From contig NZ_MWMO01000006.1 of the NCBI RefSeq assembly GCF_002556635.1, positions 1 to 64,000 of the forward strand: a stretch of DNA of 64,000 nucleotides, written 5' to 3'. A model generated the notes under the pieces. That model worked only from the letters and a program-made list of their open reading frames with translations, did no database searches and was not told the origin of the DNA. Made by a program: the position numbers and the translations under genes. How positions within the stretch are numbered: the stretch's first letter is position 1; each line of letters starts with the position of its first letter. This DNA is from Novosphingobium sp. PC22D (GTDB taxonomy: Bacteria > Pseudomonadota > Alphaproteobacteria > Sphingomonadales > Sphingomonadaceae). This document shows, in pieces, positions 1,942 to 29,751 of this stretch.

Positions 1942-4900
1942 ATGCATTCGATCGCACCGGTTCGCTCGGCGGGCGGCGCTGCCGACTATTTCGCGAACGA
2001 CAATTACTACACGGCTGAAGAGAACGCGGAAAGCGGGGTCTGGGGCGGCGAAGGCGCGCGCCTGCTCGGGCTTGTGGGCGAAGTCGGGCGAGATGCGTTC
2101 GAGGCAATCCTCGGTGGCCGGCTGCCCAGCGGCCAAATGGTGGGGCAGGTCGAGGGGCGCAGGCTGGGACTTGATCTCACCTTCTCGATGCCCAAGTCCG
2201 CCTCGATCCTGGCGCTCGTAACCGGCGACAAGCGTATCCTCGATGCACATCTTTCAGCCGTTAAATCGACGATGAGCGAGCTTGTCGAGAAGCGCCTTGC
2301 CGAAGCGCGCAATTACGAGCGCAATCGCAATGGTGAGCCGGAAAAGACCGGCAACCTCGTCTATGCCTTGTTCGCTCACGACACGAGCCGCGCGCTCGAC
2401 CCACAGGGCCATGTCCATGCCGTGGTCGCCAACCTGACACGCGACCTCAAGGGCAACTGGAAGGCGCTGTGGAACGGCGAGATCTGGAAGAACAACACCA
2501 CCATCGGCCAGTTCTACCATGCCGCCTTTCGCGCCCGGCTGCAGGCGATCGGTTACGAGACGGAGAGCACAGGCAAGCATGGGGCCTTCGAGATCAAGGG
2601 CGTGCCTGCTGCCGTCATCAAGGCTTTCTCGACCCGCACCGCTGAGATCGAGGCAAAGATCGCGGAGACCGGTGCCACGAGGCTGGCCACCAAGAAGCAG
2701 ATCACGCTCTACACCCGCGATCCCAAGCTCGATGTCGCCGACCGGCAAGCTCTGGTCGAGGGCTGGCAGGCGCGCGCGGCGGAACTTGGGTTTGATGGCA
2801 AGCCGCTGGTTGCCGAGGCGCAGGAACGCGCTGCCGCGCTGGCTCGCCCCACGATGCGCGAGACCGCCAGTGCTGCCTTTGCCGAAGTCGCCACCCGTAT
2901 CAATGCGGCGCTGCGAGCGCCGAGCGATCTCGCCGTATCCGGCCCCGCCGCGCTGTTCCTTTCGGCAGGTACGATCAAGGCCCAGCATGCGACCGCCTCG
3001 GCGATCCGGCACCTCTCCGAACGCGAGGCGGCATTCAGTCCGCATGCGATTCTCTCCGCAGCGCTGGGCTTCCAGATCAAGGGGCTTGAAGGCGAGGCAG
3101 TGATCGAGCGTATCGGGCAGCTGATCGATAGTGGGCATCTCATTTCCGGCAAGTCCGGCCGGCTCGACGGGCATTTCGACCTGGTGACGACGCCCGAGGC
3201 GCTGGCGCGCGAGCAGCAGATCCTCGACCGCATCGATGCCGGTGCCGGACAGGGCCGCGCGTTCATGGCGCCCGACGTGGCGGTCGAGCGGTTGCAGCAG
3301 GCCGCGCGCGAACTGGGACGCGAACGCGCGGGTTCCGAGGACTGGCAACTCAATGCCGGGCAGTTGGCGGCGGGCGTCGCGGTCCTGTCCGGCGAAGACC
3401 GTTTTCTCAACATGCAGGGCGTGGCCGGCGCGGGCAAGTCGACCCTGCTTGGCGCAGTGGCGAAGGTATTGACTGAAGACGGGGTGCGGTTTGTCGGCCT
3501 GGCCTTCCAGAACAAGATGGTTGCCGACCTGCGCGGGGGTGGCTCGCAGGCCATGTCGGTCGACGAGATGCAGGCGGCCGGCATCGAGGCCTATACGATC
3601 GCGCGTTTCGTCAGCACTTATGGTTCGGCCGCCGCGCGCGGGGAAGGCGAGCGTTTCGAGGCGGCGAAGGTTGCGCTGAAAGACACCGTCGTTGTTACCG
3701 ACGAGAGCTCGATGGTCTCCTCGCGCGATATGCTTTCGGTGATCGCGATCGCCGAGCGGCTCGATCTCGCCAAGGCCCCGTTCATGGGCGATCGCCAGCA
3801 ATTGTCGGCGATCGAGCAGGGCAAGATGTTCGCGGTCTCGCAAAGCGCGGGCCAGGCGACGGTGCGCATGGACGAGAACATCCGCCAGAAGAACTCTCCC
3901 TTGTTGCTCGCGGTCGCCGGGCTTTCGAACGAGGGTCATGCCAGCCTCGCGCTCGATCTGTTGGCATCGCATGGCAAGGTCACCGAAGCGGGCAAGGACC
4001 ATATCGCGGCGGCGGCCGATCTCTGGCTCTCCTTGCCGCCCGATCAGCGCGGGCAGACCGCGATCTTTACAGCCGGGCGCGACGATCGGGCGCAGATCAA
4101 TGCGCTGGTCCAGGCGGGCCTGCTGCGCGAAGGCGCGCTCAAGGGCGAAGGCGTGGCGCTCAAGGTGCTGCAAAGCGCCAACACCACCCGCGAAGAAATG
4201 CGCTTTGCCTCGACCTACCGCGCGGGGCAGGTGCTCGAAGCGCGCATGGAGGTGCGCGAGCTCGGGCTGGGCAAAGGCGAATACACCGTCCGCGAAGTGC
4301 GCCGCGACGGCAAGGTCCTGCTCGAGCGCGGAAACGCAAGAAAGCTCATCGATCCCGATCGGCTCGATCCGCAGCACCGCTTCGACCGGCTCGGGCTCTA
4401 CGAGCAGAAAGACCTGAGGCTGCACGACGGCGATACCGTGTTCTGGCGCGACAAGGATGCGAGCCGTGACATTGCCAAGTCGACTTATGCCACGGTGCTG
4501 GCAGCAACGAAGGATGCGGTCACGCTGGAGCTTGGCGACAGACGGCAGGTCACCCTGCCCGCCGGCGATCCGATGCTGCGCCGCCTTGACCTTGGCTATG
4601 CCCTGAATGCCCATATGGCGCAGGGCGTGACCATGGCGCGGGCGATCGAAGTCATATCCTCAAGCCAGCGCAACCTCGCCACCCAGCGCACGCAGAACGT
4701 CCTCAACACGCGCGCCACCGACGATATGCATGTCGTCACCAATGACCTGGCTGCGCTCAAATTCCAGCTCGACCGCACGCCGGGCAACAAGACTTCGGCG
4801 CTCGAGGCAACTGGCCTGATCGACGTCGACAAGCCGCCCGCGAACCCGACCGATGCCCGGCAGCTGCCAGACCTGAAGATGAGCCCGGAGCTCAAAGCCA

Positions 4901-4986
4901 AGCTCGATGCGGTGCTCGGTCCCCGGCCCGAACCGCAAGTGCGCCAGCTTCCCGTTCCCGAAAAATCGCTGGGGCTCGACCTGTGA
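1942..4986 (+). CDS. traI: MobF conjugative relaxase/helicase TraI
   Basis: This protein nicks oriT, stays bound to the 5' end and unwinds the plasmid. It has 1014 residues, shorter than F TraI and close to TrwC. The N-terminal TrwC domain shows the tyrosine pair Y22-Y23 in NDNYYTAEEN and the metal-binding histidines H146, H157 and H159 (GHVHAVV). The C-terminal half is a SF1 (RecD-like) helicase with Walker A GAGKST near 496-501 and a DESSM Walker B near 586-590. The ATG at 1942 gives the family's usual first residues (MHSIAPVRSAGGAADYF). It follows traD by 5 bases. An oriT-like region lies about 300 bases downstream. Confidence 0.95.
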   Translation: MHSIAPVRSAGGAADYFANDNYYTAEENAESGVWGGEGARLLGLVGEVGRDAFEAILGGRLPSGQMVGQVEGRRLGLDLTFSMPKSASILALVTGDKRILDAHLSAVKSTMSELVEKRLAEARNYERNRNGEPEKTGNLVYALFAHDTSRALDPQGHVHAVVANLTRDLKGNWKALWNGEIWKNNTTIGQFYHAAFRARLQAIGYETESTGKHGAFEIKGVPAAVIKAFSTRTAEIEAKIAETGATRLATKKQITLYTRDPKLDVADRQALVEGWQARAAELGFDGKPLVAEAQERAAALARPTMRETASAAFAEVATRINAALRAPSDLAVSGPAALFLSAGTIKAQHATASAIRHLSEREAAFSPHAILSAALGFQIKGLEGEAVIERIGQLIDSGHLISGKSGRLDGHFDLVTTPEALAREQQILDRIDAGAGQGRAFMAPDVAVERLQQAARELGRERAGSEDWQLNAGQLAAGVAVLSGEDRFLNMQGVAGAGKSTLLGAVAKVLTEDGVRFVGLAFQNKMVADLRGGGSQAMSVDEMQAAGIEAYTIARFVSTYGSAAARGEGERFEAAKVALKDTVVVTDESSMVSSRDMLSVIAIAERLDLAKAPFMGDRQQLSAIEQGKMFAVSQSAGQATVRMDENIRQKNSPLLLAVAGLSNEGHASLALDLLASHGKVTEAGKDHIAAAADLWLSLPPDQRGQTAIFTAGRDDRAQINALVQAGLLREGALKGEGVALKVLQSANTTREEMRFASTYRAGQVLEARMEVRELGLGKGEYTVREVRRDGKVLLERGNARKLIDPDRLDPQHRFDRLGLYEQKDLRLHDGDTVFWRDKDASRDIAKSTYATVLAATKDAVTLELGDRRQVTLPAGDPMLRRLDLGYALNAHMAQGVTMARAIEVISSSQRNLATQRTQNVLNTRATDDMHVVTNDLAALKFQLDRTPGNKTSALEATGLIDVDKPPANPTDARQLPDLKMSPELKAKLDAVLGPRPEPQVRQLPVPEKSLGLDL

Positions 4987-5805: not shown

Positions 5806-6969
5806 TCAGGATGAGATCAGTTCGCTTGCGAGGTCGTGAAGCGGGATTATGTCGATATCGTCCGCATATGGGAACTTTTCCGTTCCGGGATAGACGATGA
5901 GTTTCCGTGCCGGCCCGATGTCCTCGCAGGCGTTGTGAAAGCCTCTGCACACTTTCGGTGTCAGGCTGCGCTTGATTTCAACGGCCCAGACCTTGCCTGA
6001 CGGCAAAGTGAGCAGCAAATCGACTTCAGCGCCGGCCGATGTTCGATAGAAGTTTGCAAGTGTCCCTTCCGGTGCAGCGCCAATGAGGTTTTCAATCACG
6101 AATCCTTCCCAACTTGCCCCTGCCACGGGGTGAGCAAGCAAGGCTTCGAGGTTGGCGATATCCAGCAGACTGTGCACGAGACCGCTGTCGCGCACGTAGA
6201 TCCGAGGCGATTTGACGAGGCGTTTTCCGACATTGGCGTGCCAGGGGGGCAGTCGGCGCACCAGCAGCAGGTCGACCATCAGGTCCAGATATGTCGCGAC
6301 CGTCTTGCCATCGACGCCCAGCGATCGTGCAAAATCTGCTGCATTCAGCAGGCCTGACTGATGATGTGCGAGCATGGTCCAGAACCGGCGCAGCGTTTCA
6401 GCGGCGATGCGTGGCCCCAATTGCGGAATGTCGCGCTCCAGATAGGTCTTGATGAAATCCTTGCGCCAGCGTCCGCTGGCCCTGTCGCTTGATGCCAGAA
6501 AGCTGTCCGGAAAGCCGCCCTTCACCCAGAGTTCGTCTAGCATGTCAGCACCGCTTTCGAGGATATCGAGCGGTGTCATCTCCAGATAGGAAATCCGGCC
6601 AGCCAGACTTTCTCCTGACTGACGCATCAGATCGAGTGAGGCTGAGCCCAGCAGCAGGAATCTGCCGGCGCGTTGTCCTCGCTTGCGGCCTCGATCGACG
6701 AGACCGCGCAGGTTCTGGAACAGGCCTGGTAGCCGGTGAACTTCGTCGAGGATAACGAGTTTGTCTGCGTGTCCTTCAAGGTAGAGTTCAGGCTCCGCAA
6801 GACGTGCACGATCAGCATCGGATTCCAGGTCAAGGTAGATTGAGGGCATGCGCTCGCCAATTTCATGTGCGAGCGTTGTCTTGCCGACCTGGCGCGGTCC
6901 AAGTAATGCTACTACCGGGCTTTCGCCAAGGCGTTCGAGCAGTTCTTCCTGAATTCGCCGGTCAATCAT
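5806..6969 (-). CDS. DUF4143-family AAA ATPase
   Basis: A 387-residue AAA+ protein: Walker A GPRQVGKTT near residues 20-28, Walker B LVILDEVHRLP near 85-95, a winged-helix-like middle, and the C-terminal DUF4143 domain with a nuclease-like core (AEVDLLLTLPSGKVWAVEIKRS). Such ATPases are common and mostly uncharacterised, with roles proposed in DNA metabolism or toxin-antitoxin-like systems. The start MIDRRIQ at 6969 was chosen over upstream frame-open codons because it is the usual family N-terminus. It is a single gene between two blocks of transfer genes, with a long dyad directly upstream of its start. Confidence 0.88.
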   Translation of the reverse strand: MIDRRIQEELLERLGESPVVALLGPRQVGKTTLAHEIGERMPSIYLDLESDADRARLAEPELYLEGHADKLVILDEVHRLPGLFQNLRGLVDRGRKRGQRAGRFLLLGSASLDLMRQSGESLAGRISYLEMTPLDILESGADMLDELWVKGGFPDSFLASSDRASGRWRKDFIKTYLERDIPQLGPRIAAETLRRFWTMLAHHQSGLLNAADFARSLGVDGKTVATYLDLMVDLLLVRRLPPWHANVGKRLVKSPRIYVRDSGLVHSLLDIANLEALLAHPVAGASWEGFVIENLIGAAPEGTLANFYRTSAGAEVDLLLTLPSGKVWAVEIKRSLTPKVCRGFHNACEDIGPARKLIVYPGTEKFPYADDIDIIPLHDLASELISS

Positions 6970-7006
6970 CCTTGCATTTATGGAGTTTAACTCCACGATT
7001 GCAAGG
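6970..7006. promoter_or_regulatory. Long dyad abutting the ATPase start codon
   Basis: A symmetric element centred on base 6988: the perfect arms TGGAGTT/AACTCCA (6981-6987 and 6989-6995) are flanked by a second pair CTTGCA/TGCAAG (6971-6976 and 7000-7005) with the same centre. The dyad ends one base before the ATPase ATG, so on the mRNA it would cover the ribosome site. Candidate operator or mRNA hairpin for autoregulation. Confidence 0.5.
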
Positions 7007-7212
7007 TTAAATTGACATGGAGAGTGTCTGCGCAAGCAACAGCAAGCGGAATGTCGAATTTTCCCGTTGGCGTCCAAACGCTGCAATCCAGCGCATGCGC
7101 GCTGCGGGAGGAGGATGGAGCTCTAAGGGCGTGGGGCGCTGATTTGCCCTGCTATGCGATTGAAAATCGAGCCCGATCAGGCTATCCATGCAGGGATAAG
7201 GAAGAGCCTGCC

Positions 7213-7407
7213 ATGGACCATGATCGCTACGGACTCGATGGCTTGCCAATCAATGCCAAAGGCGTTGACTGCGACCCTGTGACTGGTGAAATCCTGTCGA
7301 ATGAGCCGACTGGCAGCTTTGCATTCGAGCCATACACAATTGCTCTCGTCATTCTCTCGATAGGCTTCCTCATCCTGATGGCGTTCGAGGCAGGCCTGAT
7401 CAATTAG
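7213..7407 (+). CDS. Small single-span membrane protein
   Basis: A 64-residue protein with an acidic soluble N-terminus (including a CDPVTGEI stretch) and one C-terminal hydrophobic helix (IALVILSIGFLILMAFEAGLI). The ATG at 7213 is preceded by a GGATAAGGAAGAG purine stretch. It ends 5 bases before the convergent traG stop. I do not recognise a family. It could be an entry-exclusion or transfer-associated membrane protein from its neighbourhood, but nothing in the sequence shows this. Confidence 0.6.
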   Translation: MDHDRYGLDGLPINAKGVDCDPVTGEILSNEPTGSFAFEPYTIALVILSIGFLILMAFEAGLIN

Positions 7408-7412
7408 ATTAT

Positions 7413-10400
7413 TCAATTCTTGCGCTTGGCCACATGCAGGTGGTCGCGCGCCGGGTTGTCGGGGAACCGCTCGAAGTCGACAGAATAGGATGGCCCGAGG
7501 CGTTCGCGCACACGGGCAGCCCATTGCTCACCCTGCTGGTCGGAGATATTGTTTCCCCTGAAGTCGAGCGCGCGATTGGCATAATGCGCAGACCCGGAGA
7601 CATGCTGGCTGCTGTCATTTCCAGAGGTGACCACCGGCTTTGGCAGGCCAAGCGCCCTCGCCTCTTCCGCGACCGCGCCCATCGCCGGGACCAGCGATCC
7701 ATCCATCCGGTCGGGTCGCACACCACGCTTGATGCCAAGTCCGAGCTCGCGTGCCATGGCGGCCCCATCGACCGGCCCAGCAAAGTCCTGCGTGATCAAC
7801 CTGCTCTCGCTCAGACTTCCGGTTGGTAGCGGCACGCCTGCGGGGATATCGAGATCGGCGGCCGAACCCAGAGTGCCCTGCCCCGCAATCTTCGCGACAT
7901 CGGCCAGTTCGTCGATCCGGCGGCTGCGCAAGTCACTCATCAAGTCGTCCATGATGAAGCTGATCGCCTGGTCGCGCCGGGCGATATCGCGGTAGTCGAG
8001 CCGCGGGTTGGAGATATCGGGCAGGTGCCATTCGGGATGTTCGCGTTGCAGCGTCTCGTAGCGCTCCTGGATAAGGTTCGACATGTCGCTCGAGACCTGG
8101 AAGCCATGGCTCTCCGCATAGCTGGCTTCCGACATCATGCGACCGCCGATCTCGCGGTAGCGTGCAGCGGCGGCCCGGCGTTCCTCGGCTGCGGCGACGC
8201 GCCAGTCGGTTCCGCCATTGCTGGTGCGCGACTGGCTCGAATCGGAATAATCGGAGTCCTGGCTGTAGGTCCCGCTCGATTGCACATCGCCCGCATTGCC
8301 GCTGATCACGACGCGGCTGCCAACGTCCTCCGACTTGTCAGTGCCACGGGTGACCTGGTTTGTTGACGACCGCTCGCTGCTTGCTCGGGAATCTTCGCCC
8401 CATTCCTTTCTGCCATAACCATTGACGCTCAACGAGCCAGACAGTCCGGCTCCCTTGCCCGCTTCTACATTGCCTCCGCTGCTGCCCGAATTTGCGTCGG
8501 GCTTTCCCTTCCCTGCACCACCCGGAGAACCGCCAGACAAGCGCCCCCCTAACCCGAGTGAATAGCCAAACGTCCGATTTTCGAAGTCGGAGTAGGTACG
8601 ACTATTCCCCTGCCGCAGGATCAGGTCATCGTTCGTGACCTCGCGGGTTGACTTGCCCGACGAGCCTTCGATGAGGACATTGCCGCCGACATTGTGCGTG
8701 TCGGATGCGCGTGAACCACTTTCGCTGCGCGAGCCGGTGACCTGGCTCGATGCGGCGACTTCGCTGCCGAACCGCCCGCGCGAACTGGACCAGGTAGTCG
8801 ACGTGCCGTTCTCGATCCGGTCGGCCTCGTTGAGATACCACTGGCCCTGGTTCCTGAGATCACTGGCATAGCCGCGCGTCATCGTCGCCTTGAACGGCAG
8901 CTGCGAGATCGCGCCGCTCGCATCGATCACCGAATGGGCATCGCCATAGGTGCGGTACATGCGTCCGTCCTCGCCGCGCAGGCTCGCCTGCGGCGCCCCC
9001 GCCATGAGATTGGGAGCAAGGTTCCACTGCGCCATCTGCCGGTTCTCGGCGTTGAGGTTGCCGTAGCTGACATCGCCGAACGCATAATTGCCGGTGGTTC
9101 GTTCGAGCGCGGCGGCATCGGCCGCGCCCTGGGCTGGAGACAGAAGTGCCCCCATATTGTGCGCGACCGAGAGCGTGCCGCGCATGACCATCAGCGCAAG
9201 GACCGGCACCGACATCATCAGGAACCCCGCCATCGTCGCCACGTCCTGGTTGACAGCGTCGATCCCGGCCCAGGTGACAAGGCTCACCCCGCCAGCGGTG
9301 CTGGCAACGGTCTGGCTGGCGAGCCGGTCCATGATGAACATGTGAATGAGGACGTAGAGCGGGCCCCAGGCGGCGAGGTAGAAGAACCCCGCGAAATAGC
9401 CCTTGAGCGTCGCGATGCCGGTGCGCGGGAACAGCAACAGCGGAAACACCACCGGGAACAGCGCGTAGAAGACGAGCGTCAGCACCACGCCGAGCACCGG
9501 TATCCAGATCAGCCCCTGCTCGGCGGCTGTCGTCATCGCATTGCGGGTCTGCGCATCGGCGCGCTGCAGGGCGAAGGCGTCGGCATCGGCATTGCCGAAA
9601 TCAAGCTGGGCCGCCTCGAAGGCATCGACCATGCTCTTTTGCTTGAAGAACTGGTTCCGGGTCATGGCGGTACCCGTGAGCAATTGTGCGACCACGGGCA
9701 CGTCGGCGGCAAGCCGTGCGCCGGCTGCCGCCTGGGTGAGCTTGGGATACATCGAATGGGCGAACGGCAGCGCATAGGCGTTGATCGCCCCATCCCACTG
9801 CGCGTCGAGCAGCACCCAGGCCTCGGCGCAGGTCCTCCCCTCGATATCGACCGCCCCGCCCCCGGTATCGGTGAGGAATTTCATACCGCGGTTGGTGGCG
9901 GCATTGACCCCGAGGTCGGCCCACAGGTCAGTGGATTCGGAAAGGAGCCGAAGGCTCTTGGTGCCGAGAAGGATGTCGTAGTAGGCGCATTGCTTGAGAT
10001 AGCCGTCAAGGTTCGCCTTGAAGATGGGATCGCGGATCTCGAAGCCGCGCACCTTGTCCCACAGCCGCGCGCCATAGACGAACCCGCCTGTCGAATAGTT
10101 GAGCGCGGCGGGCATGACAAAGACCGTCTCGGCGGTGCGCGTGAGGTAATCGCTTACCTGGCTGGTGAACGAGGCCATGACCCCCAGGCCAATCGGCACG
10201 TTGGCGACCGTCGCGGGCGCAAGGCCGGGATTGATGCGGTCGGTGACCTTGACCGTGACGGTCGGCACCATGAGCACGAGGTAGATCAGCGTCGACTGGA
10301 CGAACCAGCGAAACCACGCGCGCCAGTCGAGATCCATCGCGGTGATCAGCAGGGCGTAGATCAGCCCCATGACCATGCAGACGCGGATCAGCGCCTTGAA

Positions 10401-10484
10401 TCCGCCCGAGCCGGTCCAGGCAGCGATCGCGTTGAAGGTGTTGACGAGATACTCGCCGCCCCCGACGGTGAAGACCTCGAGCAT
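7413..10484 (-). CDS. traG: TraG, mating-pair stabilisation protein with C-terminal peptidase M15-like domain
   Basis: Last gene of the transfer operon, 1023 residues. The N-terminus (MLEVFTVGGGEYLVNTFNAIAAW) and several membrane helices up to about residue 450 match the F TraG/TraG-N domain needed for pilus assembly and mating-pair stabilisation. A long Ser/Gly/Asn-rich region follows (about 530-760). The last ~90 residues look like a D-Ala-D-Ala carboxypeptidase (M15) fold: SGSAHYANRALDFRGNN with H967 and D974, and DHLHV with H1015/H1017, the spacing expected for a zinc site. This tail is not part of F TraG as I know it. The gene starts 15 bases after the traH stop. Confidence 0.9.
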   Translation of the reverse strand: MLEVFTVGGGEYLVNTFNAIAAWTGSGGFKALIRVCMVMGLIYALLITAMDLDWRAWFRWFVQSTLIYLVLMVPTVTVKVTDRINPGLAPATVANVPIGLGVMASFTSQVSDYLTRTAETVFVMPAALNYSTGGFVYGARLWDKVRGFEIRDPIFKANLDGYLKQCAYYDILLGTKSLRLLSESTDLWADLGVNAATNRGMKFLTDTGGGAVDIEGRTCAEAWVLLDAQWDGAINAYALPFAHSMYPKLTQAAAGARLAADVPVVAQLLTGTAMTRNQFFKQKSMVDAFEAAQLDFGNADADAFALQRADAQTRNAMTTAAEQGLIWIPVLGVVLTLVFYALFPVVFPLLLFPRTGIATLKGYFAGFFYLAAWGPLYVLIHMFIMDRLASQTVASTAGGVSLVTWAGIDAVNQDVATMAGFLMMSVPVLALMVMRGTLSVAHNMGALLSPAQGAADAAALERTTGNYAFGDVSYGNLNAENRQMAQWNLAPNLMAGAPQASLRGEDGRMYRTYGDAHSVIDASGAISQLPFKATMTRGYASDLRNQGQWYLNEADRIENGTSTTWSSSRGRFGSEVAASSQVTGSRSESGSRASDTHNVGGNVLIEGSSGKSTREVTNDDLILRQGNSRTYSDFENRTFGYSLGLGGRLSGGSPGGAGKGKPDANSGSSGGNVEAGKGAGLSGSLSVNGYGRKEWGEDSRASSERSSTNQVTRGTDKSEDVGSRVVISGNAGDVQSSGTYSQDSDYSDSSQSRTSNGGTDWRVAAAEERRAAAARYREIGGRMMSEASYAESHGFQVSSDMSNLIQERYETLQREHPEWHLPDISNPRLDYRDIARRDQAISFIMDDLMSDLRSRRIDELADVAKIAGQGTLGSAADLDIPAGVPLPTGSLSESRLITQDFAGPVDGAAMARELGLGIKRGVRPDRMDGSLVPAMGAVAEEARALGLPKPVVTSGNDSSQHVSGSAHYANRALDFRGNNISDQQGEQWAARVRERLGPSYSVDFERFPDNPARDHLHVAKRKN

Positions 10485-10499: not shown

Positions 10500-11939
10500 C
10501 TACTGGACCTGCTGGTTGAGCGTGCGCGAGAATCTGAGCGCCGCTGACATCTGCGGTGAGAGCTGCGAGCGCAGGGTCTTTTCCATCATCTGCGTGCGCT
10601 GGATGAGGGCGAAGGTCTGGTCGAACCGTTGCGATGTGCGCGCCGAGAGTCCGAGGAAATTCCGGCGGGTCTCGTAAAGCCCCTCGCGCCACTCGCGCAA
10701 GCTGTCGGCATCCGCCCCGTTGAAGTCCGAGCGCGCGTTCACCGCCATGTCGATGAAGCGCATGGTCATGGTCGTGACGAGGTCGATCGCGACGATTTCG
10801 GAGAGATCGTTGATCTCCTGCGCGGAGATGCCGAACTCGGCTGCCGCGCTGACGGTGACGATCTTGTAGACTGGCACGCTTGCCATGCCGAGCAGCTGGA
10901 CTTCGGCAGGGGTCAGCGATGCGCCCGGATCGCGCACCTTCAAGGCCATCGATTCGATCAGCGTACGGACCCTGGCTTTCAGCGCCGCATTGGGTCCGAT
11001 CACCAACGCGGTCTCGGCCGGATTCATGCATTTGGTGGTGTCCGACCCGCACGACCAGACCTTGTGCGGCGCGGCCGAGGTGCCATCGAGCATGGCGCTG
11101 ATGAGCGCCGAATCCGCCGGGCCGATAAACTGGACGCGCGGCTTGCCGCCGCTGCCTGCCGGATCGTAGATCACGGTGCCGACCAGCGTCATCAGGAATT
11201 CGCGGAACTGGGTGTCGAATCCGCCGTATTTCTTGCCCAGGGCCTCCCAGGTGTAGTTGTTGGGCATGCCGGCCTGTTCCTGCATGTCGGGATCGGAATT
11301 GCCGGCCTTCAAGGCCTCGCGCTGGCCGCCATTGTTGCACTGTTGGCGCGCTCTCGCCCAGTCGGCGACCGCGCCCTGGCTGTTCGCGATTGCCTCGCAG
11401 ATCACCGAGGATGCGGTGTCGGTCTTGGGCCAGAGCCCGCCGACCAGCGCCTGCGCGGTTTCGCAGGACGAAATGTTCATCTGGTTCATCTGCTGCACTT
11501 TCTGCGCGAGCTCATCCATGACCTTGCCAATCTCGGGCGAGATCGTGTCGATCGCGAGCTTGAAGGCGAAGCCCAGCGCATTGTTGGCGGTGGCCTTGAG
11601 CATCGCGACGAGTTCGGCGGTGTTGATGAACGAAAACGAGCCGGCGAAGAGATCGATGCCCCCGCACCCGGCGCGTGCATGGGGCAGCTGGATATTGAAG
11701 GGCTGGATGGTCTTCTGCGGAAAGCGCGCCCACATCGCGCCTCCCGAATAATAACCCGCCGACTGGCCCTGGTAGGCCGAAGGGCCGGTCACATTGGCCT
11801 GCGCGCCCATTTCGGTCATGAAGCTTTGCATCTCGCTTTCGACCCCGGCGGATGCGGGAACGGGGGCTGTCAGCACGATTGATGCGGAGAGCACGACCGC
11901 TATGGCGCGGCGCGAGGCATGAAACAGCCGCGCGCGCAT
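10500..11939 (-). CDS. traH: TraH, F-type pilus assembly protein
   Basis: A 479-residue periplasmic/outer-membrane-associated component of F-type pilus extension. The start at 11939 gives a clear signal peptide (RRAIAVVLSASIVLTAPVPASA) and overlaps the traF stop by one base (TGATG); longer upstream readings only translate the traF gene out of frame. The mature N-terminus GVESEMQSFMTEMGAQANVT and the CGGIDLFAGSFSFIN motif are typical of TraH. Coiled-coil-like helices occupy the C-terminus. It sits in the conserved traN-traF-traH-traG order. Confidence 0.93.
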   Translation of the reverse strand: MRARLFHASRRAIAVVLSASIVLTAPVPASAGVESEMQSFMTEMGAQANVTGPSAYQGQSAGYYSGGAMWARFPQKTIQPFNIQLPHARAGCGGIDLFAGSFSFINTAELVAMLKATANNALGFAFKLAIDTISPEIGKVMDELAQKVQQMNQMNISSCETAQALVGGLWPKTDTASSVICEAIANSQGAVADWARARQQCNNGGQREALKAGNSDPDMQEQAGMPNNYTWEALGKKYGGFDTQFREFLMTLVGTVIYDPAGSGGKPRVQFIGPADSALISAMLDGTSAAPHKVWSCGSDTTKCMNPAETALVIGPNAALKARVRTLIESMALKVRDPGASLTPAEVQLLGMASVPVYKIVTVSAAAEFGISAQEINDLSEIVAIDLVTTMTMRFIDMAVNARSDFNGADADSLREWREGLYETRRNFLGLSARTSQRFDQTFALIQRTQMMEKTLRSQLSPQMSAALRFSRTLNQQVQ

Positions 11940-12766
11940 CAGTAGTCGCTCCCGGGCTGGACCTGGGTGAGCTGGAACACCCGGTCCATGATCTCGTCTT
12001 GGCTGAGGATGCCGTAGCCGATCGGCATGGGCTGCTTTGTCACGCTGTCGAAGAGCACCAGCGCCGGCACCTGGCGGTCGGCGCCGAGACCGAGCCGCTC
12101 GTATTGCCCCGCATCGACGACATATTCTGGAAAGCTCGCCGAGGGTCCGCCGTCCATCGAGACCGCGAGCACGGCCAGCCCGAACTTGTCGCTCACCGAT
12201 TTGAGGATCGGTCCGAAGATCTCGCAGGCCCCGCAGCTCGAGGCATAGAAATAGAACACGCCGTAGCGCTGCGAGAGCCGGGACATGGCAAGATCGCGGT
12301 CGGTCTTGCGCTGATCGATCCATGCCCGCTTACCCAGGGTCGAGACCGGGCGCTGGAGCGTGTAGTCGAGGCCCGGATCCTGCCAGAGCGCGCGCTGCCA
12401 GACATCGGCGAATAGCGAGGATCGGTCGAGTTGTTCGCGCTGGAAGCGCACGTAAGCGGTCACATTTTCCGGGGTGGGCTCGAGAATCGCGCGCGCCTTC
12501 AGTTCCTCAAGCGCAGTGGAGATTGCCGCCAGGCGCTCGCGTGCCGGGACCTGCGCGGCAGCCTCGGGGCTACCGGGCTCGGGCCGTGGGTCTTCGCAAT
12601 AGAACCATGTGCCAAGCTTGCGCTCCTTGCAGTAGAAGCTGTCCTCGGCCTGCTCGACCTCGATGCCGTCGCCGCTGGCCGCGCGTGCGCCACCTGGTGC
12701 GAGGAGATTGAGAGCGAGGCTCGCGGCAAAGCCGGCGGCGATGGGGATGGCCTTGGCGTGGATCAC
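11939..12766 (-). CDS. traF: TraF, thioredoxin-fold conjugal pilus assembly protein
   Basis: A 275-residue periplasmic protein of the TraF family. I chose the GTG at 12766, which has AGGAACC upstream and yields the signal peptide IPIAAGFAASLALNLLAPGGARAA; the ORF remains open further upstream but that stretch is traN read in another frame. The C-terminal thioredoxin domain keeps a CGAC (CxxC) pair near residues 177-180, so it may be redox-active, whereas F TraF lacks this motif. It begins 25 bases after the traN stop and overlaps traH by one base. It probably helps fold Cys-rich TraN and TraU together with DsbC. Confidence 0.9.
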   Translation of the reverse strand: MIHAKAIPIAAGFAASLALNLLAPGGARAASGDGIEVEQAEDSFYCKERKLGTWFYCEDPRPEPGSPEAAAQVPARERLAAISTALEELKARAILEPTPENVTAYVRFQREQLDRSSLFADVWQRALWQDPGLDYTLQRPVSTLGKRAWIDQRKTDRDLAMSRLSQRYGVFYFYASSCGACEIFGPILKSVSDKFGLAVLAVSMDGGPSASFPEYVVDAGQYERLGLGADRQVPALVLFDSVTKQPMPIGYGILSQDEIMDRVFQLTQVQPGSDY

Positions 12767-12791: not shown

Positions 12792-14927
12792 TCATGGCTG
12801 GTGGCTTTCGTAATAGGCTTCGATCCGGCGCTGGATTTCGACGAGCGTGGCGGCCTCATCGGGAAGCTTCGCGGCCTCGACGAATTCGGCATAGACTTCG
12901 GAAAAATCCATGACCGAGAGGTCGAGCCGCTGGAACTCGAACACAGTAAAGCCTTCGCAAGTCTCGGTCTTGGGTTTGCCCCAGGACTTACCAAGCTGGG
13001 GGCGGCCCTGTTCCTGGAGGATGCGGCTGATCTTCGATTCAAAGCAGCAGTAGACCTCTTTCCTGGTCTTGCAGATGCCGAGGAAACTCGAGGAGCAATA
13101 GGTCCCGACCTTGTGGCACAGGCCTGCATCGTCCTTCTGGTCAAGCAGGACTTCGGACGGGCTGCACAGGAGCGGCGTGAGGAGCGGTACGCCGCGTCCC
13201 GAGCAGCAGTTCGAAAGCCCGAAGAGCTTGTGCGAACAGGTCTCGCGCGTGCCGCGAAACAGCGTCAGCGTCGCCTCGTCGAATTCGGCATTGGCCTGGC
13301 CGAGCGCATTCAAGGCCACAACCGCGTCCTTGAACTCGTCAGAGGCCTCGCGCTCGATCGTCTCGCACTCGCCATTGATGCAATAGACATCGCCGCCGCA
13401 GATGTACTGCGCGGGCTCGGGAGTGCTTCCGGGAATCGGGCAGGAATAGATCCGCTCGGTCACGCCGCACGATCCGTTCGCAGCGGGCGAATCGTCGAGG
13501 CAGGTTTCGCGCGTGAGCGAGCACGAGGCATTGGCCTCGAGACTGGCGCAGTCGTTGCCGCCCCCGACAATTCGTTGGCACAGATATGGGCGGCTCTTCT
13601 GCCAGCAGGGGCGCGTGACGGGCACGCCTGCTACCGTGCGGGTCTCGTTGGGCGCGGTGCAGATTTCGTTCTGGAGCGTGCAGGCGACCGGATCGTCGGG
13701 ACAGCCCGAAGTGCTCCAGCTTTCGGTGAACCACTTCGAGACCGAGACTTCCGGCGTAAACCCAGCGAGCGTTGTGCTGCACGACCAGACTTCCTCGGGC
13801 GCGGCGGGCTCGATGCAGGTCAGATATCCGCCGCTCAGCGGATCGCCGACAAAATCCCAGGTCTTGCAGAGACTCCGCTCGGTAAGCCCTGCACTGCTTG
13901 GCGTGGTGCGGGTGCAGGCAGGCTCCGAGCCAATCGACCCGCATTGCTGGAGCCCGGTTACATAGTCGAGCGGAAAGCCGGTGACCGGATCATAGGTGAG
14001 TGCGGCGCTCAGCCCGTCACTGTTGCAGCGGTAGATATTGCTCACGACTTCGAAGGCGCCGGGCGGCGGCGGCGCCGGAACAGTGCCCAGCACGTAGGTA
14101 TTGGGATCGGCAACCGCGCTGCTGCAATCGTAATAGTCAATGGTGATGCCGTAATCGGGGATGGGATAGCTTGCGGTGCGCCGGCACTGGCCATTGCCGG
14201 CAAGCGCGGAGCAGCCATCGAAGCCTGCCGAAATCGCGCAAAGATACTGGTAGGTGAGCGCGCTCCACTCGGTAACGACAAGATTGCTGGTGCAGCTTTT
14301 GGTCTCCTTGATGACCTGCGAGCCGACATGGCAGGTCCATTCGGCGCTGTTGGGCGTGCCCGGCCCGGGCGGCAGCGGCGTGCAATCACCGGTCGAGCCA
14401 TCGGCGCCCACTCCATCGAGATAGGCGTCGGGACTTGCTTCGATCGCAGTCGCACGCGCCATGTCGTCGCGGGTGACATTGACCGTTGGGCGCGATGTCG
14501 AATTTGCCGTGCGGTAGGCCTCGCTGCTATAGCCTTCCGCGGCGCCTGCGGCATACATCTCGCCGGGATTGTCGTAGTACTGGGTGAGCCCGGGATAGGT
14601 GGCCTCGTAGCCCGGCACTTGCGCTGCCGCATCTGCTGCCTGCGTCAGGTTCTGATAGGTCTCGCGCAGCGCGCTCCCCGCAGCGCGGGCTTCGGCTTTC
14701 GCTTGTTCCGGCGTCATCGAATCCGGTGCGGGAGGAGGTGGTGACAAGGATTGCGGTAGCGGCGTCTCGCCGGCGGCGGGAAGCACCGGCAGCTCCTCGA
14801 TCAGATCGTCGGGTGGCGGGATATAGACCTGGGCTTGCGCGGCTGTGGCGGCGAAGAGCAGGCAGGACAGCATCAGGCTCGCGATCAGCGGCCTTGATCG
14901 ACCAGATGCTCGTGCGAGGCGCGCCAT
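12792..14927 (-). CDS. traN: TraN, cysteine-rich outer-membrane mating-pair stabilisation protein
   Basis: A 711-residue exported protein with dozens of cysteines, the hallmark of TraN, the outer-membrane adhesin that contacts the recipient. The ATG at 14927 (one base after the trbC stop) gives a signal peptide ending AATAAQAQ; an upstream in-frame start at 14963 would overlap trbC. The N-terminal 150 residues are Pro/Ala-rich, then comes the Cys-rich body, and a C-terminal domain with the CCSGRG and CCFESK motifs often seen in TraN. In F-like plasmids TraN variants determine recipient preference. Confidence 0.92.
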   Translation of the reverse strand: MARLARASGRSRPLIASLMLSCLLFAATAAQAQVYIPPPDDLIEELPVLPAAGETPLPQSLSPPPPAPDSMTPEQAKAEARAAGSALRETYQNLTQAADAAAQVPGYEATYPGLTQYYDNPGEMYAAGAAEGYSSEAYRTANSTSRPTVNVTRDDMARATAIEASPDAYLDGVGADGSTGDCTPLPPGPGTPNSAEWTCHVGSQVIKETKSCTSNLVVTEWSALTYQYLCAISAGFDGCSALAGNGQCRRTASYPIPDYGITIDYYDCSSAVADPNTYVLGTVPAPPPPGAFEVVSNIYRCNSDGLSAALTYDPVTGFPLDYVTGLQQCGSIGSEPACTRTTPSSAGLTERSLCKTWDFVGDPLSGGYLTCIEPAAPEEVWSCSTTLAGFTPEVSVSKWFTESWSTSGCPDDPVACTLQNEICTAPNETRTVAGVPVTRPCWQKSRPYLCQRIVGGGNDCASLEANASCSLTRETCLDDSPAANGSCGVTERIYSCPIPGSTPEPAQYICGGDVYCINGECETIEREASDEFKDAVVALNALGQANAEFDEATLTLFRGTRETCSHKLFGLSNCCSGRGVPLLTPLLCSPSEVLLDQKDDAGLCHKVGTYCSSSFLGICKTRKEVYCCFESKISRILQEQGRPQLGKSWGKPKTETCEGFTVFEFQRLDLSVMDFSEVYAEFVEAAKLPDEAATLVEIQRRIEAYYESHQP

Positions 14928-14928
14928 G

Positions 14929-15729
14929 TCACCTGGCCTTGCGCAGGTTGGCGAGCGCGACATGCGCTACTCCGGCGCCGGGGCCTCGCGCTTCGGCAAA
15001 ACGCTCGAGCGCGTATTCGACGCTGACATTGCCGCTCATGCGATCGTGATCGGGAACGGCAGAGGCGCAATCGAACCCGTCGCACAGCTCATAGGCGCGG
15101 CTTGCCACGACGAAGGTCGGTGCGGCGTGGACGGAAAATGCCCGAAACAGGCGCGGGTCGATGGCGATATGGGCTTCCTGGCGCTCGTCGGTGACGACGC
15201 GCTTAAGCCCCTCGGCGAACGCCCGCGTGCTGCCTTTCGGAAATCCGCGAAAGACCACCACGCCGCCGGCCGCGCTGGTGTCCGCAATCAGGCGCGAGAG
15301 CGAGGCTTCGGGCATCGAGAGGCTGGCAAAGGCCACGAACAGCGGTCCCTCCCCCATCGGTGCTGAAGCATTGGCGGCAGCGCCCTCGAGGATCGCGTCG
15401 AAATCGACCGGACCGTCGGGTCCCCTGGGCAGGCTGGCCGGATCGATGCCCCGCATCGCGGCCATGGCCTCATCGCGCAACTCTTCGGCTTCGCGCGCAT
15501 GTGGCAATTCGCGTCCTGCAAGGGCATCGACGAAGTCCTGCGCCTCGCTGGCCTGCCCCCCGGCGCGTGCCTTGATCGCGTCGAGATCGAGGCCATCGAC
15601 AGTCTGGGTGACGCTTTGTGCGGCGGTCTGGGTCAGCCCCGCCGAGATCCCGGCGAGCGCCAGAAATGTGGCGGCAGCGATAATCCGCGGCGATCGGAAT
15701 AGGCCGATAGAGAGACGTAACCTGTTCAT
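14929..15729 (-). CDS. trbC: TrbC, F-type pilus assembly protein
   Basis: A 266-residue periplasmic protein. The start at 15729 overlaps the traU stop by ATGA, and leads to a hydrophobic signal (RSPRIIAAATFLALAGISAGL). The C-terminal half has the TrbC-F thioredoxin-like fold with a FVAFASLSMPEASLSRL strand-helix. It interacts genetically with TraW in F, and both are present here. The N-terminal ~100 residues are helical and charged. Confidence 0.88.
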   Translation of the reverse strand: MNRLRLSIGLFRSPRIIAAATFLALAGISAGLTQTAAQSVTQTVDGLDLDAIKARAGGQASEAQDFVDALAGRELPHAREAEELRDEAMAAMRGIDPASLPRGPDGPVDFDAILEGAAANASAPMGEGPLFVAFASLSMPEASLSRLIADTSAAGGVVVFRGFPKGSTRAFAEGLKRVVTDERQEAHIAIDPRLFRAFSVHAAPTFVVASRAYELCDGFDCASAVPDHDRMSGNVSVEYALERFAEARGPGAGVAHVALANLRKAR

Positions 15730-16742
15730 AAAGCGCAGCAATTTCGCTTCCTCCACACGAGGTAGCCAAAATCCTCGCCCTTGACCGGGAAGGACTTGCC
15801 CGTGTGGGGAATGATCGTGGTCGCCCCGATCGGCGCGCAGGCGTAGCGGCCTTTGACGGTCGGGATCGGGTTGGTCATTTGCAGCCGGTACTGCTGCTTC
15901 CTCATCACCGGCATCAGGTACTTATGACACAGGGCCTTCGAGCCCATCGTCCCCCAGGCAAGCGCTTCGCGGTGCATCTTGTAGAGCATGCGTTCCGCCA
16001 CGAGCCGCGAGGCCTGGACCGGCGTGACATGGGCCGCGACATGGCCGTTCAAGGGGTACATTCCCCCGTTGCAACCCGCGCACCAGAACATCTGGTCAAT
16101 CGGGAGCTTGGCGGTCGCGGCGACACAGTCCGCGGCGCAAGCAGCGGTGGCGATGGGATTGGCGAACAGCGCGACTTCGGGATTGATGATCGAGGTAAGC
16201 GCGGAATCCTGCCAGAGCGGATCGAGCTCGGTCACATAGGCCACATCGAACGTCGTCTGCTCGAAGCAGAGGAAGTCCGTCAGGATCTCCATCCAGTAAA
16301 GCAGCGGATAGACGTAGTAGTGGGCCTGCCACTGCGAGGAGTTCTGCGTCTTGCCGCCGACCTGGCTGCGACCCTGGACATGGCCGTTGCCGATATCGAA
16401 GCCGGGGTTGAGCCGGATCCCGCCAAGGTTGGGAAAGCACCAGGACTTGTTGGTGACATCGACAAGCCGCACCGGCTCCCAGAATCCCACCGAGATGCCG
16501 ATGCGCGGGATCGGCGAACCGCAGGCGCACAAGGGGAACGAGGGATTCTTGGGATCGGGCCGCGAACCTTTCCAGATGGCAAGCCCGCCGATCGAGAGCG
16601 GAAAAAGGCACGACCAGCACACGTCGGTGATCGGATTGACGAACTTGCCATGGCAGGTGACTGAGGCGCGGGCTGGTGCGGCGTCGAGACCCATCAGCGC
16701 GAGCGTGGCAAGCGCCGCCAATATCAGGCGCGGCAGCCGCAT
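15726..16742 (-). CDS. traU: TraU, conjugal DNA transfer protein
   Basis: A 338-residue periplasmic protein needed for DNA transfer more than for pilus growth in F. Signal peptide LILAALATLALMGLDAAPARAS, then TCHGKFVNPITDVCWSCLFP, a very characteristic TraU start, and many paired cysteines (CACGSP, CAADCVAA, CAGCNGG). The ATG at 16742 overlaps the stop of the upstream small gene by one base (TGATG); a GTG one codon earlier is possible. ATGA-coupled to trbC. Confidence 0.95.
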   Translation of the reverse strand: MRLPRLILAALATLALMGLDAAPARASVTCHGKFVNPITDVCWSCLFPLSIGGLAIWKGSRPDPKNPSFPLCACGSPIPRIGISVGFWEPVRLVDVTNKSWCFPNLGGIRLNPGFDIGNGHVQGRSQVGGKTQNSSQWQAHYYVYPLLYWMEILTDFLCFEQTTFDVAYVTELDPLWQDSALTSIINPEVALFANPIATAACAADCVAATAKLPIDQMFWCAGCNGGMYPLNGHVAAHVTPVQASRLVAERMLYKMHREALAWGTMGSKALCHKYLMPVMRKQQYRLQMTNPIPTVKGRYACAPIGATTIIPHTGKSFPVKGEDFGYLVWRKRNCCAL

Positions 16743-17020
16743 CACGCCTCACATTCCTGGTTCTTGGCCCGGTTCCAGGCGGCATCGGCATTCGTTTTGG
16801 CGCGCCAGTAGATGAATCCCATGACGGGCATGGCGATAAGGAGCAGAAGCGCCGGCAATGCGCCTAACGGGCCGACGAAGCCGACGATTGCTGGGTTGAG
16901 GACAACTGCGAGCAGGAGAGCAACGCACAGCAAGACCCATGCATGACGCAGGCGCCTCAACCTCGAGGTCTCCGGGGCGGCCATCGGCGTGGCCAGGAAA
17001 GCGAGCAGCGGATGGGTCAT
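16742..17020 (-). CDS. Small two-helix membrane protein in the transfer operon
   Basis: A 92-residue protein with a basic N-terminal stretch (SRLRRLRHAW) and two hydrophobic segments separated by a short turn (LLCVALLLAVVLNPAIVGFV and LGALPALLLLIAMPVMGFIYW). It overlaps traW by ATGA at its start and traU by one base at its end, so it is translated as part of the operon. I cannot match it to a named F tra gene. Its size and topology would allow a pilus-assembly or exclusion role, but no function is claimed. Confidence 0.75.
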   Translation of the reverse strand: MTHPLLAFLATPMAAPETSRLRRLRHAWVLLCVALLLAVVLNPAIVGFVGPLGALPALLLLIAMPVMGFIYWRAKTNADAAWNRAKNQECEA

Positions 17021-18720: not shown

Positions 18721-19060
18721 CGGGCCTCTCCTTGCTGGGTGCAATGAACGAGATGAGCACGGGCAGGCGCAGCACGGCGACAACGAGGAACACCGCGCCC
18801 GAAGCGAGCCAGAACTGCGCGCGGAACGCGGCCTGGCGCAGCGGATCGGCAGCCAGGTAACGGCTCGCGAAGTTGTGGAGATGGAGCACCAGCCCCGCGA
18901 AGGTGAAATCGCCAAGCGCGGCAAAGAGCAGCGCCCAGCATGCGGCGACGAATGCCATGCACACCGCCAGCCACCCGCAAAGCCTGAGCGTCACATAGCA
19001 GGCCCTCGCCCACCAGCGATCTGACGCACTGTTCCGCGCGGAGGTTGCAGGCACGCTCAC
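18692..19060 (-). CDS. Two-helix membrane protein between traC and trbI
   Basis: A 122-residue protein with two strongly hydrophobic segments (LCGWLAVCMAFVAACWALLFAALG and FWLASGAVFLVVAVLRLPVLISFI) and a loop rich in aromatic and histidine residues. GTG start at 19060 overlaps the traC stop by GTGA, and the end overlaps trbI by 29 bases, so it is firmly embedded in the operon. No named F component matches; it is a plausible extra inner-membrane part of this transfer system. Confidence 0.72.
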   Translation of the reverse strand: MSVPATSARNSASDRWWARACYVTLRLCGWLAVCMAFVAACWALLFAALGDFTFAGLVLHLHNFASRYLAADPLRQAAFRAQFWLASGAVFLVVAVLRLPVLISFIAPSKERPDGQEHAAGR

Positions 19061-21683: not shown

Positions 21684-22859
21684 TTAATCCTCCTCGACGG
21701 CGGGAAATGATGCGGGCGGGTTGGTCGCCGTCTGCTCGCCAGGCACCGAAGGCTGCGCAGGACTTGCAGGGCCCGATTCCGTCTGGGGTGCGCTGCTGCT
21801 AGTCGGCTGCGCGCCCATAGGCGATACGGCGGGTTCGCGCGCCACCGGAAGTCCGCCGGGCGCTTTGGCGGTCTGGCCAAGGCGCGCGTCGACTTCGGTC
21901 TTGATCGCATCGATCGGGTTGGCTGTACGCCCGGCATTGCTTCTTGCCCGGGCAGCAGCAACCACGCGCGCATCGGGCGGACCGGCAGGAGCAAGCGCGC
22001 TCACTGCTGGCGCCGGGTCGTGAGGCCCGGCTGACATTGCCGCCGGCATTTCGGGAATGGACGGGCCGGAACCCGGTGCCGCGAGCGCCGATGTTGGTGC
22101 AGCCCCTGAAAGCTGCATCCACCCGCCTTCGTCGGCGACCGTGTGCACGACGCGCGGCTCGTGGAAATTGCCCGCGCCATCGACATAAGAGGGAAACACG
22201 ACCTTCAGGACGCGCCGCTCGCGATGGACCAGGTCAGGCCGCACCGCCGCCAGCCTTCCCCGGCCCTCGTGCGTGGCGGCAGAGGACCTGACGCTGGAAT
22301 GTCGGGGTCGCCGCTCGAAAGTCGGCCCTGCCGGAAACCGTGTTTCGGGTGAAAGCGGCCGCGCGTTCTGAATGAGGCTGAGCGCCTGGTCGTCGATCAC
22401 CGTCGATGGCGCGCAAGTACCGCCCGGCGCGCTGCACGAGAAGCTGCCCTTCACATTGCTACCGAGAAAGGCCGTACAGGCGGCCAGCTGCGTCGCGGCC
22501 AGTCCGACAGCAGCGATGCGCGCCGCGCGGGCAAGCCTCGAGCGTGGTTCGCAAGTGGCAAGTTCGCCGAGGCGGCAAGCGAGACTCCACAAGGCGAGCC
22601 CCTGGTCGAGCGTGAACTGCAATTCGGACAGGATAATATGTCCATGCGAGCGCCGCCACGCGCGTCGGCGCAGATGCGCGCATTCCCGCGCGGTGAGTAC
22701 CCTGCCCTTGCCCTTCGAAAATGCGGCCGCCACATCGCGCCACAAGGCGATGGCCTCCTCGCGCCCGGGATTGCGCGCGAGTATCCGCACCTGCCCGTTT
22801 GAGCGCCGCCAAACCGCCTGGCGCAGGCTCGCTAGCTCCCTATTCGTCAGCAAGTTCAC
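21684..22859 (-). CDS. traV: TraV-like outer-membrane core protein with duplicated N-terminal extension
   Basis: The TraV part begins with an internal lipobox LAAC (C128), then GSNVKGSFSCSAPGGTC, the typical TraV mature start, and a Pro/Ala-rich C-terminus. TraV forms the outer-membrane ring with TraK and TraB. Unusually, the frame is open back to a GTG at 22859 that overlaps the dsbC stop by GTGA, adding about 110 residues made of two similar units (5-46 and 56-98, sharing T-x-R-E-x-A-x-L-R, WRRS-x-G and A-L-W). No ATG lies near the lipobox; a TTG at 22592 with AGGGG upstream is a possible internal start that would give a more normal lipoprotein. Confidence 0.8.
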   Translation of the reverse strand: MNLLTNRELASLRQAVWRRSNGQVRILARNPGREEAIALWRDVAAAFSKGKGRVLTARECAHLRRRAWRRSHGHIILSELQFTLDQGLALWSLACRLGELATCEPRSRLARAARIAAVGLAATQLAACTAFLGSNVKGSFSCSAPGGTCAPSTVIDDQALSLIQNARPLSPETRFPAGPTFERRPRHSSVRSSAATHEGRGRLAAVRPDLVHRERRVLKVVFPSYVDGAGNFHEPRVVHTVADEGGWMQLSGAAPTSALAAPGSGPSIPEMPAAMSAGPHDPAPAVSALAPAGPPDARVVAAARARSNAGRTANPIDAIKTEVDARLGQTAKAPGGLPVAREPAVSPMGAQPTSSSAPQTESGPASPAQPSVPGEQTATNPPASFPAVEED

Positions 22860-23716: not shown

Positions 23717-23727
23717 CGTATCCCTCC

Positions 23728-29351: not shown

Positions 29352-29751
29352 TTCACGCACCATGTGGCGCGTGCTTTCCCGAGGGATTGCGCGTACGCCA
29401 TCAACCAAATCGAGTCGTTCGTGTCAACGGCGCGGGAAAGTCACTTTCATGCGCTCCTCGCCGTTGCAGCTATGCCGCGCGGGCCAGATGGCGAGCAAAC
29501 CCTGATGTTATTGCTTCGGCGCAAAAGCAACCGAACATTCAAGGCTGCGTATCTGGCTCTGGTTGTCCGGACATTCGCATGGCTGAGCAACGACTCGAAT
29601 TGTCTTCGGCTCATCGGGATTGGCAGCAGAGAAGATACCGCTCCATTGTAGGCATGAAGCCGGTGTCACTGGTACAAGCCGATAACAAAGCGAAGGCCCC
29701 CCATAGGGGACGACGTTGGACGCCATCCCCCGTCGAGGGCGAGCGCGCAGC
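29352..29751. other. Intergenic stretch, no gene recognised
   Basis: Four hundred bases between the transglycosylase start and the end of the TonB receptor gene. Open frames here are short and lack ribosome sites or recognisable motifs. It marks the border between transfer genes and metal-related cargo. No inverted repeat or insertion sequence end stands out. Confidence 0.5.

Follow-up and report, generated by a model that had tools for sequence, protein, structure and literature searches.

To our knowledge, the way in which DNA and machinery cross peptidoglycan, above all the peptidoglycan of the recipient, is unsettled for Gram-negative conjugation. In the F-type TraG of the plasmids F and R100, the C-terminal half is described as periplasmic and residues 610-673 as setting exclusion specificity (available text of PMC9797247), and the C-terminal half of F TraG, anchored in the inner membrane, has been proposed to reach the recipient through the mating pore (PMC9797247, PMC7555446). 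In Gram-positive bacteria, PrgK and the TraG of pIP501 are also T4SS membrane proteins with wall-cutting domains, including LytM and CHAP (PMC12857230). Lysostaphin, D-Ala-D-Ala carboxypeptidase, and Shh are placed together in the LAS group, in which a catalytic Glu accompanies ligands of the patterns H-x6-D and H-x-H (available text of PMC6027127).

The window analyzed in this study, a whole stretch of 64,000 nucleotides from Novosphingobium sp. PC22D (contig NZ_MWMO01000006.1, positions 1 to 64,000), encodes a TraG that resembles those of F and R100 in its TraG_N region, in its traN...traH-traG neighborhood, and in a variable segment located at the place of the exclusion region. However, the window TraG scored under the cut-off of the NCBIfam TraG equivalog NF010295 (265.5 bits over residues 3-589, cut-off 600), and it ends in a putative peptidase tail that F TraG is without: as the initial annotation of this DNA had stated, F TraG (938 aa, NC_002483) ends differently, with no match to three tail profiles at E ≤ 10. 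While PrgK and the TraG of pIP501 are VirB1 homologues, the domain is here carried by a TraG_N mating-pair protein and the SLT gene is separate. The predicted fold and the zinc motif of the tail are those of the hedgehog N-domain and the bacterial Hh-DD-peptidases (PMC6027127), but its identity to hedgehog is 17-22%, the hedgehog family PF01085 remained under cut-off, and the tail is joined to TraG. Similarly, the M15 endolysin LysECD7 (8q2g), the endopeptidase ChiX (5opz), and MepA (1u10, 1tzp) have the same kind of zinc-peptidase fold at 14-15% identity, but these are standalone enzymes, in contrast to the tail of a conjugation protein found here. Among the literature matches listed for wall enzymes on TraG, no title concerned a peptidase tail on an F-type TraG.

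The traG gene and its C-terminal domain

The traG gene (7413..10484, minus strand) encodes 1023 aa. Because the Pfam domain TraG_N (PF07916) matched residues 3-455 (9120..10478, minus strand) with 346.7 bits against a cut-off of 36.1 (E = 2.9e-103), the ORF is identified by its sequence as an F-type TraG. Hydrophobic segments of this membrane region were located at residues 32-50, 60-78, 333-351, 367-385, and 415-433, and a Pfam search found no SLT domain in TraG itself. The gene is flanked by traH (10500..11963 as the stretch tested; PF06122 on residues 45-400), traN (12792..14963; PF06986, E = 1.5e-88), and further F-type genes, which include trbC (14929..15756; PF09673), traU (15726..16745; PF06834), traC (19057..21678; PF11130), a dsbC-like gene (22856..23731; PF10411), a traB or TrbI-like gene (23728..25086; PF03743), and traK (25086..25895; PF06586 and PF23536), all on the minus strand. 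The traI gene for a TrwC-type relaxase (PF08751, E = 4.9e-81) lies on the plus strand at 1942..4986. An SLT lytic transglycosylase that is VirB1-like by domain and position is encoded at 28491..29408 (minus strand; PF01464), and with this gene beside the transfer genes, the idea of the TraG tail as a substitute for a missing lytic transglycosylase was rejected.

The closest plasmid record found was pLA1 of Novosphingobium pentaromativorans US6-1, which is typed MPF_F and conjugative and has a TraG of 92.8% identity. An AAA_14/DUF4143 ATPase gene located between traG and traI in the window (5806..7086, minus strand) had no counterpart among the genes listed between traG and traI in pLA1. In addition, the same genome contains three more TraG genes on the contigs C22, C8, and C12 (L080, L081, and L082), with tail-less open frames of 935, 947, and 907 aa, respectively.

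The initial annotation had proposed a C-terminal domain resembling M15 peptidases at positions 7413-7610 and had suggested structure prediction of residues 930-1023; positions 7413-7610 encode residues 958-1023 and the stop. A domain was indeed found there, but it is larger, starting near residue 905 and covering residues about 905-1021 (7422..7772, minus strand). H967, D974, and DHLHV (residues 1014-1018, including H1015 and H1017) were present at the positions given, and the putative active site comprises H961, H967-x6-D974, E1005, and H1015-L-H1017 (7434..7604, minus strand). The two ligand patterns of LAS/M15 enzymes are thus represented by H967-x6-D974 and H1015-x-H1017. E1005, an invariant Glu ahead of the H-x-H, may be the catalytic Glu by its likeness to E177 of hedgehog (PMC6027127), so that H967, D974, H1017, and E1005 would complete the LAS elements.

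Seven residues (H961, S965, H967, D974, E1005, H1015, and H1017) were invariant in 14 full-length TraGs, the window among them, and the motif set was complete in 56 of 57 3'-complete ORFs from a scan of 84,980 species genomes, where D974 was given by the search since the query peptide ALDFRGNN contains it. This conservation argues that the motif is not a product of chance. D974 was also invariant in a 15-row alignment, most rows of which came from a pattern-free search. The one exception among the 57 ORFs (L129) is a LysM-type protein with HLR instead of HLH. The tail is under purifying selection, with a median dN/dS of 0.086 (183 of 528 pairs passing the dS filter), compared with 0.121 for the N part of TraG and 0.262 for its variable segment.

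Searches of the window tail alone against Pfam, PHROGs, and NCBIfam gave no match at E ≤ 1, and a single-sequence search against the PDB returned nothing useful. Neither the tail nor its relatives reached the Pfam cut-offs of the Peptidase_M15 families or HH_signal, with relatives matching only below them (best E of 0.0029 for HH_signal and 0.072 for Peptidase_M15_3), and the tail is therefore not filed in a Pfam M15 family. When a profile of 35 relatives was compared with the PDB, hedgehog N-domains ranked first, though with weak E-values (0.024 and worse), in a match that spans the zinc motif H..S-L-H-Y..R-A-L-D and aligns H967 and D974. When the 35 relatives were searched singly, seven touched HH_signal (best E 0.0041) and 12 touched ATPgrasp_N (best E 1e-4), the latter being stronger by E. 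The ATPgrasp_N match, which covered only 31 residues in L010, was taken for a chance match.

The tail was modeled with AlphaFold (pLDDT 86.9, pTM 0.83), and this model matched hedgehog N-domains in the VIA list with Z of 10.1-11.5 and rmsd of 2.7-3.6 over 105-113 residues, standing clear of unrelated folds. The model also matched LysECD7 (Z 7.7), ChiX (7.1), and MepA (7.0-7.1), where a VIA Z of about 7 is weak alone, as designed switches, phosphatases, and other unrelated folds score 6-8. Foldseek agreed on hedgehog (E from 6.9e-4) and listed MepA only at E 0.23. The matches in a viral library included proteins named peptidase M15A and a hedgehog-named Microviridae protein, as well as proteins whose names refer to GH19 or LT_GEWL domains. 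The initial annotation had been prepared to give up its reading if the predicted fold lacked the M15 core; the LAS fold core was recovered in the model and the structure comparisons, which reached both hedgehog N-domains and the M15 endolysin. A clustering of the residues, on which that reading also depended, is suggested by the way H967 and D974 line up with the zinc motif of hedgehog in the profile comparison. Hence, the M15-like reading held for the modeled fold but not for membership in a Pfam M15 family. By sequence and model, the tail appears to be an LAS/M15-type domain resembling these peptidases, and it would presumably bind zinc.

Hedgehog, the nearest solved fold, is disputed as an enzyme (available text of PMC6027127) and often thought inactive, and inactive VirB1 homologues have been proposed as adhesins (PMC12857230). 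The tail might likewise be a catalytically dead module of LAS fold that merely binds the wall as an anchor or adhesin of the mating junction. However, the ligand and Glu positions are kept in all but one of the 57 ORFs and in each of the 14 full TraGs, and the tails that replace this domain in related TraGs match M23 and M74 peptidase families with their zinc motifs kept, which makes a dead module unlikely.

Occurrence of the domain and exchange of TraG tails

Among 296 Sphingomonadales genomes, 13 contained the domain, including one weak match (G086, E 4e-5). The search for the same fusion in other sphingomonad TraGs, which the initial annotation had suggested, was productive: the species-genome collection contained 59 loci, which BLAST against a single reference for each class sorted into 35 TraG, 15 LysM/cell-wall-hydrolase-type, four VgrG3-type, and five fragmented or disrupted loci. 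Three of the proteins, L009, L010, and L011, were searched against Pfam. The first two combine a LysM domain over cut-off with a Hydrolase_2-like region (23.0 and 24.1 bits, cut-off 27), and L011 is VgrG3-like (PF21277, E 5.2e-47) with the same domain at its end. The LAS-type domain, below Pfam cut-offs, also ends the LysM/hydrolase-type and VgrG3-like proteins of L009-L013, L118-L126, and L129-L138, which are mostly sphingomonad. Of 72,556 plasmid records, 20 carried the domain, 17 at traG genes (two of these being records of the IS-interrupted pNL1) and three on LysM proteins. A scan of viral contigs with the single peptide ALDFRGNN gave no match, and two of 50,697 records in a phage collection matched, both of them Microviridae (E 7e-4 and 5e-3). 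Among the class- and phylum-level TraGs read, tailed TraGs were confined to the order of the window.

Other TraGs end in different peptidase domains. An M23 domain was found at the C-terminus of six TraGs (97.9-111.4 bits, cut-off 28.7), and an M74/MepA domain at that of two (28.9 and 27.6 bits, just over the cut-off of 25). Both types keep zinc motifs of the form HxxxD/HxH or Hx6D/HxH in sequences read by eye. An M23-tailed and an M74-tailed TraG shared 69.3% identity over residues 1-947 of the former, where the match ended. The M74-tailed TraG of Croceicoccus marinus is already annotated as "penicillin-insensitive murein endopeptidase" in the database, and the M74-TraG fusion is thus already visible in database records.

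A TraG phylogeny was constructed from 140 distinct TraG_N regions of 166 TraG ORFs after dropping identical matches and those under 400 residues. No tail was found in 91 rows, some of which are shortened ORFs such as L030 (778 aa) and L039 (831 aa); an M15-like tail was found in 37 rows, a number that gives no frequency since the tail itself served as the query that brought in most of them; and the remaining rows included six M23 tails, two M74 tails, three ORFs truncated where a locus or contig ends, and one broken ORF. The survey covered loci with a TraG-profile match, leaving aside nine loci that had none, G224:C37 at a contig edge, and several further matches. In a search with TraG_N only, TraG occurred in 53 of the 296 genomes of the order, eight of which had a tailed TraG (seven M15-like and one M23). 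A branch with SH-aLRT 98 sets all 45 tailed rows, along with the broken row and 13 that have no tail, apart from the others, and this 59-row group of Sphingomonadales TraGs requires at least seven changes of tail state in a tree that was a quick search with a midpoint root and several long branches, so that its deep joins are unsure. The M23 and M74 rows interleave inside one subgroup (SH-aLRT 98). Additionally, 11 tailed rows that do not belong to the window's subgroup were compared, and seven of them (L053, L015, L210, L205, L209, L016, and L140) have a loose P..SP(L)-like element just ahead of the tail; it is absent from L206, L208, L058, and L211, from the window, and from the four untailed rows shown.

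From these sequence comparisons, we conclude that the C-terminal end of TraG is probably an exchangeable site for peptidoglycan peptidases in this sphingomonad group. Lysostaphin is an M23 enzyme, and MepA is the M74 one. Lysostaphin and murein endopeptidase are named within one fold group (PMC6027127); since M23 and M74 share this fold group with the tail, three LAS-type enzymes appear to be used at this end of TraG. The same observations bear on the suggestion that the tail is a processing peptidase acting on TraG or another Tra protein. A self-peptidase activity has been proposed for hedgehog (PMC6027127), but the replacement tails match families of peptidoglycan peptidases and the domain itself occurs alongside LysM and lysozyme-like modules, making a processing role highly improbable.

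A small ORF adjoining traG

A hypervariable candidate entry-exclusion ORF of 64 aa with one hydrophobic segment (7213..7407, plus strand) adjoins the end of traG in convergent orientation, and ORFs of this type were present beside 38 of 44 M15-tailed TraG ORFs. Differences between its alleles at codon positions 1, 2, and 3 numbered 602, 424, and 1984 (pairwise, first 12 aligned codons), and this enrichment at third positions in the conserved start marks the ORF as coding. A family profile search found no known exclusion family over cut-off for it, and none of the papers found in a literature search concerned exclusion proteins of sphingomonad plasmids by its title.

Covariation was analyzed in 33 distinct pairs of small ORF and TraG. 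Distances between small ORFs tracked a hypervariable segment of TraG at residues 618-722 (8319..8633, minus strand), proposed as the exclusion-specificity region from this covariation and the F alignment, with window correlations of 0.65-0.81 there and 0.02-0.47 elsewhere. The partial Mantel correlation of this segment with the small ORF, holding the rest of TraG, was 0.739, and none of 2000 permutations was as high. With residues 1-610 held, the values were 0.21 for the tail (1/2000) and 0.219 for residues 740-890 (0/2000), and the N part of TraG gave 0.043 (356/2000 as high) with residues 740-890 held. Weak links of the small ORF to the tail and to residues 740-890 remain.

Allele classes of the small ORF and the TraG segment agreed in 32 of 33 pairs, with the classes defined after viewing the sequences and those of the small ORF loosened afterwards, before which L083 had no small-ORF class and L094 no TraG class. 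The lone mismatch, L111, is possibly a recent recombinant. In three class tests with 6, 7, and 7 phylogenetically independent pairs, means of 5.8, 7.0, and 6.8 agreed in direction, and no pair ran counter to it. Residues 610-673 of F TraG, the exclusion region in F and R100, align to residues 628-724 of the window TraG, and the locus thus shows the pairing of the TraS type, in which the alleles of a traG-adjacent gene pair with the equivalent of TraG 610-673. Judged from these sequences, the small ORF likely encodes an exclusion protein with TraG 618-722 as its partner.

This exclusion-like covariation speaks against the tail as an exclusion determinant, and the suggestion of the initial annotation that the tail could shape exclusion found no support, as the covariation maps to residues 618-722. 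A tail that determines exclusion specificity would account for its weak correlation with the small ORF, but the segment correlates far more strongly although the tail is, by coordinates, the nearer of the two to the small ORF, and the segment coincides with the exclusion region of F and R100. Moreover, the tails of the window and pLA1 are 97.5% identical, in contrast to 38.5% for their small ORFs. With partial Mantel values of 0.739 for the segment and 0.21 for the tail, setting exclusion was rejected as the main role of the tail, and that reading is the least probable of those considered.

The small ORF also bears on a toxin-like function, in which the tail would harm recipients or non-kin like the effectors of evolved VgrGs and give no help to transfer. 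The same domain is found behind VgrG3-like enzymes, and the tail differs among relatives, but the sole small gene hugging traG covaries with another part of TraG, and such a toxin is considered very unlikely.

Possible role of the tail in DNA transfer

The preferred reading, with a probability of roughly three in four (0.74), is that the tail is a zinc peptidase of the LAS group that cuts peptidoglycan at the periplasmic end of TraG and opens the wall for transfer. The N-terminal half of TraG would be anchored in the inner membrane of the donor with the C-terminal half in the periplasm, a position presumed by analogy to that reported for F TraG (available text of PMC9797247). The tail, comprising the last ~115 residues, would act on peptidoglycan by cutting its peptide stems or cross-links, and from its place at the tip of a long arm it may open the peptides of the wall around the mating junction or the channel as it assembles. 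The separate SLT enzyme would complement it by cutting glycan strands. The wall that is cut may be that of the donor during assembly or that of the recipient during mating. The wall-cleaving tail of the initial annotation thereby gains indirect support, from its domain context and from the M23 and M74 peptidases found in its place, and its activity, the bond cut, its effect on transfer, and its periplasmic position here are all presumed. A model of full-length TraG (pLDDT 43) was too poor to place the tail.

The tail is probably not essential for transfer. In pNL1 (L213), an IS630 element separates traG from the tail, and yet pNL1 is reported to transfer (available text of PMC3877037), in a statement that cites older work, whose strain may differ from the one sequenced. 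This reported conjugation with a severed tail, together with the 13 tail-less rows of the TraG group, indicates that the tail is not generally required. In Novosphingobium olei (L116), traG is likewise apart from the tail, which forms a separate ORF of 133 aa.

A more far-reaching version of the proposed role, which is tentative and rather doubtful, has the TraG arm pass through the mating pore, where residues 618-722 would act as a sensor that checks, through the small exclusion protein (7213..7407), whether the recipient has the plasmid, and the LAS tail would loosen the recipient's wall if it does not. If so, the type of tail (M15/hedgehog-like, M23, M74, or none) would tune which wall chemistries of recipients can be opened.

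The fusions described here suggest that TraG itself has a part in opening a wall when DNA is transferred. Since its wall peptidase is built in and naturally swapped, such a mating-pair protein would offer a direct handle on the passage of DNA through peptidoglycan, and TraG-peptidase fusions may serve as a natural reporter that TraG has its end toward a wall. For the degradative plasmids of sphingomonads, the covariation between the 64-aa ORF and TraG 618-722 provides a concrete candidate for an exclusion pair.
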